Part shown: piece by piece, positions 18,901 through 24,900 of the stretch
Layout of the letters: each line of letters starts with the position of its first letter
Position numbering within the stretch: the stretch's first letter is position 1
NCBI GenBank assembly: GCA_030141605.1
Contig: JAQGDQ010000108.1
Span: forward strand, 434,001 to 498,000
DNA: 64,000 nt
From: Tubiluchus corallicola
Taxonomy: Eukaryota; Priapulida; Priapulimorpha; Priapulimorphida; Tubiluchidae
Reading direction: 5' to 3'
Program-made: the position numbers and the translations under genes
Notes under the pieces: generated by a model
The model's database searches: none
Told to the model about the DNA's origin: nothing
Seen by the model: the letters and a program-made list of their open reading frames with translations, nothing else

Positions 18901-21900
18901 CCTAATTTTAGCCCTTAAGTATTTACAAGCTAGTTGTGAATTGCAGTCTGTGTGAATTCTGGCTTCTTTTTTTAAAGTTTGTATTGAACTTTGTTTAAAG
19001 ATCATGTCTGTCCAATCATTTGGTTTTTCTAATTGCCAGTTGCCTCTTGCTGGCATTGTTAGCTTTTACATAACAATCAAAACACTCTAGCTAAGTGGGT
19101 GGTCTCGTTACCTTTCCACAGAACTAGTGGTCTAGACTTATAATATAAATTCGTAAAGCAGAAATTAAAAAGTTTAAGTTTATCAACAGTAAAATGTATG
19201 ATGTTGTCTTCCCAGTGAGCTGAATAAATATTACCTTTAATTGCAATGAATATGTTGACCAGTAATTTCATCATTTCTTTTGTAGATGAGGCAATTAGAC
19301 AGTACCGTCATATAGCACGACAGTACGCATACTTCTACAAGCTTTTTCATACGGCTAATGATGTGAAAGGCATTGTATTCCTGAAGGAGAATTTCAGCTA
19401 TGATGCCTACAGGTTAGTCATAACTAGTATGCTAAATAAAAATCAATAAAGGCATTTTTAACTAGTTGGCAAATTTCCTTTTGCATATCGAATTTAAATA
19501 TAAAATTTTGCTAGTTTGATGCTAATTAAATAATTCATTATGGATTAATTTAAATTTGTAGATGCTTATGGTTTGGCTGAACAAGTGATATTTAGTGACG
19601 TACGTTCAATGTTTGCTACTATGTGACACCCAATGATTTTCTAACTAAAACTGAATAAATGGTCAAAAAAACCATTTGTAGACAAAAATTGTTGATGTAA
19701 GTTTTGAGGATGATTTTGAAGCAACAAATTTGGTTCAGCAACCATGGTTGTCTTGGACTTAAACACGAATTATGCATTCAGCAAATATACTCTCTATTAT
19801 ACTACAGCAAATATACAATCACTTTATTACGTTTTTCCTGATTTGCAGTCCTTTGCTAACTCAGACAACATTAGATAAACAATTTTAAAGTCTAATAGCC
19901 AATTCAATATTTTTTTGTGTTTATTATTATTGCACTATTATTATATACAGGTTTGATATAAAAAAAGAAAACCCTTATGAAGTACCATATAGCTGAGAAT
20001 TTTTGTTCAATTTCTATACAAATTTTAACAGAATAAAGTAGAAACATTTTAGCACTTCCCTCTAATTTTTGTTAAGAATGTCCAGAAAATAAATGTTTTG
20101 TGTTTGATACTGTCATCAAACCCATAAAAAAAGTAGATATTAGTATAATTATATTGTCATTAAGGGTATTGATCAAATCAGGCCTTGAAGTAATTGAAAT
20201 GTCAGGGGAAAATTGAACCGTTTTTAATGTAAGTAAAAACAAAACAAAAGGATAAACAATATTTTTTCCTTCCTTGGGACATTTAAGCTTTTTTATTTAA
20301 ACTGCATTAAAGTTCTCACATATTGCATTTTTTGTTAAAAACTTGGTATTATTCTTACCATATGCATGATGCATTTTTTTCATAGCAAAAAGTTTTTTCC
20401 GATCCATAGAAAAATTAATTTTTAATGAATTTCTTAAAAAGGCTTACTTTTTTTGTGTCCACCCATTATATTAACTTTACAAGTCACATAAAATACTTTT
20501 AATCTTTTCATCACATACGATGACAAAAGATTCAGATAGTTTCATCATGATCTGTTACTAACTCTTGCACATACTTTATGAATTTTTTTGTATTTAACTT
20601 TTTTGTGTTTTTCTGCAACCATTGAATTCATAGCGTACCACAAAAAATTTGATGTTGTTTGAACACTTCAAATTTATTTCAATTTATTTCAAGATAAATA
20701 AAAGTTACAAAATAAACATGTAAAATGCACTAAATGTTCAAAGTAGAAGTCACATTACACTTGATTACTTTTCAACTATAGATCATGTATTTGCAAGATT
20801 CTCCTTTGAGGTAAAGTTGAGGATATTCATTGTTTCTTAAGTGCAAAGTCAATTATTTTGTGTCACTGCTTATTAAGTGCATAGCTTGTGTGTCAGATTT
20901 TTAAAGTATGCTGATGCACGTTTCCTAAAGTGCTATTCCAAATATGATACTAATTTTCCATTGGTAGCGTTGTTATAGTTATACTGCTATAATCTAGTGG
21001 GACTGCTACTATGGCAACTACATTGATATTTCGATGTTGCTGTAGAAACTGTACTACCATTTGCCATTTCTATCAACTTGAAATTATTCGTAAAAACATG
21101 TGAGTTAGAGTGTATAGAATGCTTTCTCCTGTACCACAACAAGGATGCTAGTATTGCAATACTTGCGAACAGAGCTATCACAGCGGTGGCTGCTCCTATT
21201 GCTACTGCATGAACTGAAAATGACTGTTTATGAACTGCGGTTTGATTAGGTAAGACAACTGCACTGACGTAGTTCGTCTGCGAAGTTTTAATATTGCTGT
21301 CACTACCGACTTGTTTGATTTCAACACTGTGTTGAAATTCTTCAAGGGTGTCCTTTGAGCCTGTTGATTGTTCAGTTGATACATCATTGACGTCACTACT
21401 TTGTGATGTGTCTGTTTTAGACGCGTAATTTCTTGTTAAAATAGCTGGCTTATTCAAAGTAGTTAAATCACCATTTGGCTCATTGGCTGTATCACTATTA
21501 GTTATCACACTGGTTGGTATTTTGGTTTGTGTACTCAACTTTGGAGGCACCTTTGGTGTAACTGTTTCATTGCTATCCATTTGTATGGGATTTTCTAAAC
21601 TAGAGCTGTGTATGTTTGTACCAGCTGTTCCATTTTCTTTTCTAATATCGACTGTTGTATTATGATACAGTTCAGTTAATGTCCCTATGCTGTTTGTAAA
21701 CTTGTTAGTTGATGGCATTGTAACTATAATGGTTGGTAAAGTTGCTGCCATGGTGGCAAAATCATCTGAGAAAACAGATGCTTCTGACTCTTCATCAGTT
21801 TCCACATCTATTGCCCATTGTGATGATGTGGTTACATCGCTATAGATTAAACTAACTGTCACATCTAGCATTTCACTTGTTGAATTATTGTCACCCGATG

Positions 21901-24900
21901 TTGAGACTAAAATTTCACTTTCATTGTCGAGTGTTGAATTTTTTTCTAAGTCTGAATCATTGCCATCCTCTTTCGTATTGCACAGTAAATATGTGATGTT
22001 GTAAATTTCACTATCACTTGTTACGTTGTTATCACACACACTTGAATTCACCACAAATTGCCACAAGTCAATAGTGGTGGTAACGAAATTTATGTCCTCA
22101 TGTATGGCTGCCACAATGAGTCCCCCATTGACCATGTCTGGCATGGAAATAAAAACTGATACAGCTAGTGCAGCTAGTCCAACAATTGTTTTCATATTGC
22201 TTCACGTCTTCTATGATAAGCGGTCATGATTGCTGCTGAAACAAAACAAAATACATGCATTAATATTTGTCAAGTAAATTTGATTAAGTTTTTTATACAA
22301 ATTGCCCCAGAAAGGCCAGTGGCCACACCAGGAAAGGTGCTACAACAAAAAGGTGAAAATATGGAATACATGACCAATAGAAATCGTATAATTAATTTAT
22401 CATGAGGCACCTGCTGATGTTCTTCTTGGATCAGCTTCAATCAGGTGAAAGTGTAGTTTCCAGGGAAAGAATTTTCTGGCACGGAAGTGCACCAGAAAGC
22501 TGTTTCTGGAAAAACTGCAAGTTTGCCTTGTCAGAAACCCATATTTTCATTTCGCTGCCCTAATTTTTATCAGTGCAATTTTCTATGACCTAATCATCAT
22601 ACTTCTTTGTGGTCTTGTTCAAGAAATCAAACACATTCTCTCTGTATTTTTTTTTAATTTTGAACTAAAAAATCGTTGTGCAACTTTAAACTATGATAAC
22701 ATATAAAAATAATACACGAGTCATAATACGTGAGACTCACCAAGCATTGTAATTAATTATGGAAAATGTAAATTATTTTTTAAACAAACTTTTGAAGTAA
22801 ATTAACTACAAAAATTTATTATTCTTACATAAAAAGTGAGTTGACACTCAACATACCAGCATACTTAATTTTTGACATAATGACATAAAGACATGTAAGG
22901 TTAGTGAATTGGTTGATTACAAATGTGATCACGAAGTATGACCATAAATGACATGCAACTAACAATGAAGGAAACATTTATCGTGAGAAACAAATAAACA
23001 GCTGCAGTAAACTTAGCTATTTTATATCAGTCGTAAACTTTTATTTAAAAACTTCTATCCCACAGGGACTGGTTTTATTGCGTGTATGATGTCTATAATA
23101 GGAATTTTGTGACATGTTTATGATTATGTTGAATTGATTGTTCCCACACTCGATTACTGAATTATAAGGATTGTATGCTGGCTGACAAATGTGAACTGAT
23201 TGAAAATTGTTTTATTTTTTAGTAAACACTGCATCACAAAATTCTTTTGAAAAGTTCGTATTGTTCTTAACTCTCAACTTAAAATCAATAATATATCGAT
23301 GGCCTCTTTTGCTACCAACTTATTTGTCATGGTAATCTTGAATTTCTCCTCAGGTGCAATAAGGTTACTAGCTCCAATAACAGGTCCCTTAGTATACTTA
23401 ACACTAGTGAAAACGTAATTACATCAAACAATGAAACGATCGCAAAATGCAGTTAGCAGTATAATTTGTAACTGATCAGTGCTGATGCAGTGTCGTTATG
23501 ATTAGCTTGAATTTGTGCCTACACAAGTAAGTTTGTGTTTTATTCACAGCAAAGTATATCTGCACAATAATGACTTCCTATGTTGGTACAATCTACTTTT
23601 ATCAGACAACTGAAGGCATTTTTATGCTGTAGTGACTGAGGCTTTACGATGACGCCATTAGAATAGTGACTTCGTGTTTGAATATTATCACTTGTGAAAG
23701 CCTATTTACGGGCATTCATGTGTTTTGTGTACGTCTCCACTTCAGTCTTTGTGCGCTTTCTTTAGTGCAAATACCGAACGGCATTCACTTCACAAAGGAA
23801 TGGTACGATGGGAATTGCGAGGTCAGGGAATTTTTAACTGGAGAATTGTAATTGTGAAAGTGTGATTTATGCTTATTTTATATGCTTTAGTTTGAGCTAA
23901 AATCGTCTAGTTGTCTTTAATATTTTATCCACACAGTCACTGAGTAAAAGACAGTTATATTATCACTTTGGAGACAAAATTATAATACATATACATGCAT
24001 TACTAAACGTAGCGAAAGGCAAATTTATAACTGTCGTTCTACAAAATATGCATTTTTAAACACAAATTTTGATTTCTTATTACTTGTTAGATGTTACGTT
24101 TAACAGTGATACATAGTAAACAAAATACAAGTATATACTATAACGAAAAAATCACGAATACAGGAATTAATACAAAATAAGTGTTCAGGAGTTTAACAAG
24201 TCCAACAGAAAATTGCTGTGTATCTGTTATCATAGTAAGTACACATCTAAAATCAGTTTAAAGCTGCACCAAATTGTGCAATGTCTGAAACGTTTTTACT
24301 TTTGAAGTATGAAGTAAACTATGAAGAACTTTGAAGTACACAGTGATAAGTAAATATAAATAATGAGCTTTTGCATTTGTTAAAATAGTTTTAAGTCATA
24401 GCATTGCATTTGAGTTCATATCAGTTTATTTCCATGATGATGTCACCCTTATTTTGTCATTAGACATTCTCCTTCAAGCATGGTGCCAGTGGGTTTTGGA
24501 TATAAGAGGCTTTTGGATATAATCCTTGAAGACTTGGCGATTTACAAAATACAATTATTTGGCTGCCACATTGCATTAACCAAGCTAATGTTAGCTTCTT
24601 CAAAAAAAATGTGTAATTTTTGTAGTTTTATCAGCATTTGCATCAGAGTTTAGCAATAAGTTTATTTAATGCTTGGCTAGATGTGATCAGACTAATCCAT
24701 TTTCTTCTTCACTCTATCAGCAAATCAGTGGAGGCACAAGATTTCTTGTCAAGTCTGCAGTTGCTGTTATGCACAAGTGCCAGACATTGGCCTTGACTGC
24801 ATCTGATTTCAGTTTTTCTTTGGTCTTCAGATATTCATTTCAATTTAAGTGATATTATTGAATGTTCTTTCAGGGATATTGTTATTTTCAATGTTTTCTT

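Follow-up and report, generated by a model that had tools for sequence, protein, structure and literature searches.

A reading frame nested antisense in a large SETD3 intron of Tubiluchus corallicola, probably encoding a type I surface glycoprotein

The priapulid Tubiluchus corallicola probably carries a genuine protein-coding gene within a large intron of SETD3, on the opposite strand, which encodes a type I single-pass surface glycoprotein. The gene lies in a 64,000-nucleotide (nt) stretch of contig JAQGDQ010000108.1 (assembly GCA_030141605.1, positions 434,001 to 498,000 of the forward strand), which was analysed as a whole and is called the window; all coordinates below are those of the window. 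The reading frame of the nested gene, its period-3 signal, the hydropathy topology of its product and its place in SETD3 are observed directly. An antisense-nested type I membrane glycoprotein gene is well supported by the sequence, while codon usage gives it no support. Should the gene be expressed and conserved, this animal would have one more surface protein, of unknown family. Compact antisense-nested genes whose product has a disordered-looking ectodomain and no known domain would be easily overlooked by homology-based annotation.

The reading frame and its coding signal

The nested gene consists of a complete open reading frame (ORF) of 402 codons on the minus strand (20987..22195), with its ATG at 22195, a stop codon ending at 20987 and no internal stop. 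A first-pass annotation had described a single frame of this length antisense to SETD3, which both the sequence and the ORF translation confirm. The frame is the longest in the window, with a stop-to-stop length of 404 codons, and the runner-up within the host intron has 114. By comparison, 60 order-3 Markov sequences of 64 kb each, simulated from the composition of the window itself, had a longest stop-to-stop frame of 142 codons on average and of 184 at most. Upstream of the ATG, with 6 nt between them, lies an in-frame TGA.

Taken over the whole ORF, the period-3 signal reaches 14.9, and the four quarters taken singly give 3.0-6.1; this compares with a mean of 1.1, a 95th percentile of 3.8 and a maximum of 5.8 in 99 overlapping windows of 1206 nt without known exons (starts beyond 46 kb were excluded, as simple repeats and a receptor exon lie there). 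The first codon position of the ORF is purine-rich (0.71), as is typical of coding DNA in general.

Layout of the predicted protein

By hydropathy and inspection, the product begins with a signal peptide and has one more helix, flanked by basic residues on the cytoplasmic side, the arrangement of a type I membrane protein. The signal peptide covers residues 1-24 (22124..22195, minus strand, as for all parts of the protein), with a hydrophobic core inside about residues 4-16 and a cleavage point that is approximate and placed by inspection. It is followed by an acidic, Ser/Thr-rich ectodomain (residues 25-328, 21212..22123) with 12 N-glycosylation sequons and two cysteines, Cys 54 and Cys 72, and by a membrane helix (residues 329-354, 21134..21211) in which the 19-residue Kyte-Doolittle mean reaches 2.5. 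The 48-residue cytoplasmic tail (residues 355-402, 20990..21133) holds a YRRKH stop-transfer segment and a Cys-x-Cys motif (Cys 392 and Cys 394) and ends in PTRL; the terminal TRL presumably fits the PDZ class I pattern. The elements named in the first-pass annotation, from the signal peptide through the Ser/Thr-rich ectodomain, single helix and basic stop-transfer to the Cys-containing tail, are thus all present and in that order.

The same annotation held that such an ordered topology is improbable by chance, and residue shuffling agrees: among 2000 shuffled proteins the hydropathy of the signal peptide was reached by 17 and that of the helix by 9, and none reached both together. Loose thresholds for a signal peptide plus a helix are passed by 3 of the 21 ATG-initiated ORFs of at least 80 amino acids (aa) in the window, and the two besides the nested frame (97 and 108 aa) overlap a GAT repeat at 49161-49332.

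Serine and threonine make up 27% of the ectodomain (computed over residues 25-330) and proline 3.3%, and it has 44 acidic and 15 basic residues. The sequons, which are predicted sites, exceed the expectation from residue shuffles (12 against 7.2, standard deviation 2.2), and 12 were reached in 125 of 5000 shuffles. What the earlier description calls a densely N-glycosylated ectodomain thus amounts to a modest enrichment. Two of the 12 sequons overlap, and a 13th lies in the tail. Self-comparison reported no internal repeats in the protein.

The host gene and its intron

SETD3 runs on the plus strand, and its joined translated exon pieces match solved SETD3 structures at 8e-14. The pieces, located with a human SETD3 protein as query, follow one another in the expected sequence between 14.2 and 41.3 kb. 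Matches of sound or fair quality (E 1e-13 to 0.02) place the first six pieces and the three after them, and the last three (E 0.11, 0.002 and 6.5) are weaker and were placed by order. Between the sixth and the following piece lies the host intron (19412..33519, plus strand), a phase 2 intron of 14,108 bp with the Y-R-W junction kept, and the whole ORF is contained in this one intron on the opposite strand. It is the biggest gap between located SETD3 exons, in keeping with the earlier claim that the gene sits in the largest intron. To be intron 7 it would need one further exon upstream besides the six located there, and no such exon was among the pieces found.

Among the measured pieces of the SETD3 unit (14000-41400), the ratio of observed to expected CpG ranges over 0.37-0.60, and it is 0.75-0.95 in the flanking pieces, with the exception of the ORF of a ZFP36-like gene (0.55). 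This pattern, low over the gene body and mostly higher around it, suggests a resemblance to invertebrates with gene-body (mosaic) methylation. The same intron also contains, at 31600-32100, a stretch richer in G+C (as much as 47% over 400 nt), which holds the 114-codon frame on the minus strand, without a Pfam match, and might be an ancient repeat or else a promoter or 5' exon.

Signals around the frame

Candidate gene signals are suitably placed on both sides of the ORF, each of them weak alone. Two adjacent AG splice acceptors follow a T-rich tract on the minus strand (22233..22237), 40 and 37 nt before the ATG, and would fit an intron in the 5' untranslated region. Their score of 4.5 is reached by 14 of the 1518 AGs on both strands of the host intron, these two included, or about 0.5 per kb of strand; the score is hand-made, and the six SETD3 acceptors scored, of seven located, span -1.9 to 7.1 on it, four of them below 4.5. 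Alternatively, a TATAAA on the same strand (22292..22297), which begins 102 nt before the ATG, could serve as an unspliced promoter. The sequence would allow either of these two gene models. Two AATAAA poly(A) signals (20673..20688, minus strand) lie about 300 nt past the stop and precede a T/GT-rich stretch; individually they are weak signals because such AT-rich DNA often contains AATAAA.

An 11-codon upstream ORF, read by eye, lies on the minus strand at 22192..22227, with its TGA overlapping the main ATG (as ATGA), and could regulate translation by re-initiation. As candidates for a first 5' exon, donor-like sites on the minus strand, such as CAG|GTAAGT at about 32475, and the G+C-richer stretch at about 31.6-32.1 kb were considered and set aside, as nothing links either to the nested gene.

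Searches for relatives

The first-pass annotation matched the protein to no family, and this holds for Pfam, NCBIfam and solved structures; the phrase "no known family" is accordingly limited to curated profiles and solved structures. NCBIfam and the solved structures gave no match at E<=10. The Pfam scan of the protein likewise gave no match to the profile of the CD34/podocalyxin family, for which Pfam presumably contains a model. In viral and prokaryotic contig collections, 2 and 32 stretches, respectively, fitted a peptide pattern of the protein, and none passed tblastn. No paralogue was found elsewhere in the window, where the protein gave just two matches at E 7.8. Rfam returned nothing at gathering scores and ARAGORN no tRNA. 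In the literature searched, there was no paper joining SETD3, nested, intron and antisense, and nothing on this gene.

Weighing the reading

Several observations weigh against a functional glycoprotein gene. The synonymous codon score of the ORF (-0.041 per codon) does not separate from that of intron frames (-0.037, standard deviation 0.019, n=168), and the other five frames of the same DNA all outscore it (-0.029 to 0.031); the codon reference is small, with 860 codons from the exons of SETD3, the ZFP36-like gene and a receptor. The G+C content at third codon positions (GC3) is 0.303, close to that of the intron, against 0.427 in the reference exons. The CpG ratio of the ORF is 0.44, compared with 0.37 and 0.56 in the flanking intron and 0.76 in the SETD3 exons, and 22% of 628 windows of the same size have a ratio as low. 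On the side of the protein, 3.3% proline is low for a classical mucin, and a C-terminal S/T-x-V/I/L is by chance no rare ending, especially in a Ser/Thr-rich protein. Finally, the Pfam scan, listed to E=10, gave no curated family and only DUF6082 (E 0.26, 11.3 bits against a cut-off of 26.7), with the proviso that the HMMER filters discard most matches above about 0.1. The intron-like codon and CpG values may reflect weak codon bias in a gene long resident in the CpG-poor body of SETD3; unselected sequence would look identical.

These values bear most directly on the rival that survives best, namely that the frame is a gene copy that died recently, or a young one open by accident, and now functionless. 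Its codon usage, GC3 and CpG content resemble the intron and not the reference exons, there is no homologue among Pfam, NCBIfam and solved structures, and expression of the nested gene is a prediction, all of which would suit such an origin. However, a dead frame in AT-rich DNA is expected to acquire stops, whereas here 402 codons are intact, the period-3 signal is found in each quarter, the signal peptide and helix are undamaged, and the acceptor and poly(A) signals are still in place; the intron-like CpG depletion itself suggests long residence. We consider this origin improbable.

Less credible again, and in our view very unlikely, is descent from a retroelement or virus, with the ORF as a leftover gene of envelope-like or other kind. 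Envelope proteins combine a signal peptide and a glycosylated ectodomain with a single helix and a short tail, a layout that the nested protein fits as well. Against this, the protein contains no furin-type RxxR site and just two ectodomain cysteines, no relative was confirmed among the viral contigs, and the six frames of the host intron hold no Pfam domain at E<=1. The region 18500-26500 is also without notable repeats, the longest direct repeat being 29 nt at 72% and no inverted repeat reaching 20 nt. The Pfam-free intron means that there is no sign of a transposon, and a transposon origin, considered separately, is ruled against by this result and by the lack of notable repeats.

The good splice acceptor 40 nt before the ATG raises a further alternative, in which the ORF is the last coding exon of a longer gene on the minus strand, with earlier coding exons upstream. 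Against it, the in-frame TGA between acceptor and ATG blocks an upstream exon from feeding the frame through that acceptor; the sole AG between the TGA and the ATG scores -4.6 (AGs inside the ORF lie outside the scored set), and the frame starts with a signal peptide of its own. The chances of this model are slight. A regulatory antisense transcript with an incidental ORF, to which the location within SETD3 and the interference of nested genes with host transcripts (PMC3192792, where the protein-coding cases are tandemly arranged) might point, is the least plausible of all, since an incidental frame is not expected to reach 402 codons with such a topology.

Other features of the window

In the protein encoded on the minus strand at 2581-3351, Pfam recognises a pair of CCCH zinc fingers (zf-CCCH, 1.6e-21, in two stretches); we take this protein to be ZFP36/TIS11-like, and its gene is the ZFP36-like one mentioned above. 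On the plus strand, 50181-50882 encodes an initial portion of a rhodopsin-type receptor (7tm_1, 1.6e-20), whose frame, by eye, seems to continue beyond the exon into sequence of low complexity. Diverged interspersed repeats, with pieces 73-83% identical, form one direct pair (8656-9379 and 16943-17504) and one inverted pair (51149-51564 and 56662-57052).

A possible mode of action

Returning to the antisense-nested glycoprotein gene, we infer that it is transcribed and that its product is secreted, glycosylated, able to bind a PDZ domain, and functional. The coding region would occupy a single exon, expressed either with a short 5' untranslated exon upstream or from the TATA promoter directly in front. 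The signal peptide would direct the protein to the endoplasmic reticulum, the single helix would anchor it and the 48-residue tail would face the cytoplasm. Outside the cell, an N-terminal part with the two cysteines would be followed by a long acidic Ser/Thr-rich stalk, predicted to be probably extended and glycosylated.

For the function of such a protein, only a tentative and rather doubtful suggestion can be drawn from analogy with podocalyxin: it might serve at the surface as a spacer of the sialomucin kind, or modulate adhesion, with TRL recruiting a PDZ scaffold of the NHERF type and the basic juxtamembrane segment lying near ezrin-type linkers. That it founds an undescribed, lineage-restricted mucin-like family, which arose in the SETD3 intron, came to a podocalyxin-like layout by convergence and is kept in position by its own enhancers in the host intron, seems a long shot; for the nested Drosophila gene 2mit, retention in its host tim2 through enhancers in the host intron is proposed in PMC3786989.

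Comparison with known systems

The comparison with podocalyxin is limited to a likeness of working, since the protein has no family match to podocalyxin. Podocalyxin carries its globular domain close to the membrane, whereas the two cysteines of the nested protein are near the N-terminus and far from the membrane. The nested protein further differs from podocalyxin and CD34 in its proline-poor ectodomain and in having no Pfam family match. It resembles them, as far as they are described in PMC1796660, in its one helix and basic juxtamembrane segment, and may resemble them in a mucin-like ectodomain and in a putative PDZ-ligand end, DTHL there and PTRL here. According to the same source, the DTHL end is essential for NHERF binding, the juxtamembrane segment is reported to bind ezrin, and f-actin recruitment is less robust when the extracellular domain is missing. 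A point against podocalyxin-like action is that the tail and NHERF binding are described there as dispensable for microvillus formation and ezrin recruitment, so that the TRL end alone would not explain it.

Nested arrangements as such are well known: in Drosophila, nested genes are put at about 6% of all genes (PMC3786989), and in humans about 63% of them are cited as being on the strand opposite to the host (PMC3192792); the interest here is instead the orphan protein. The earlier suggestion that transcription of the locus in both directions could couple the nested gene to SETD3 is not favoured. Among 109 human and 752 fly nested pairs, a survey cited in PMC3786989 and PMC3192792 found no expression correlation, and PMC3786989 reports no functional relationship between 2mit and tim2. 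Some nested genes are cited as correlating negatively with their hosts in PMC3192792, which also describes interference with transcription, where the protein-coding examples are pairs in tandem arrangement.

The closest parallels in arrangement are 2mit and LRRTM1-3. 2mit is described as a type I protein with Ala/Thr/Ser-rich parts, encoded antisense in intron 11 of Drosophila tim2 (timeless2), and shares with the gene in SETD3 the position of an opposite-strand protein gene in a host intron and a single-pass type I product with a signal peptide (PMC3786989). Its long disordered extracellular stretch, its Ala/Thr/Ser-rich parts and its structure of two exons and one intron, as given there, can be counted as further likeness. 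With 16 leucine-rich repeat (LRR) units and 1141 aa, it differs from the nested protein of 402 aa, which has no recognised domain. LRRTM1-3 lie antisense in alpha-catenin introns (PMC3933685) and are presented there as an LRR family of neurexin binders found in vertebrates only, unlike the nested protein, which has no LRR match. What they have in common with it is a single-pass membrane protein whose coding sequence lies wholly or mostly in one exon, antisense within one large host intron.

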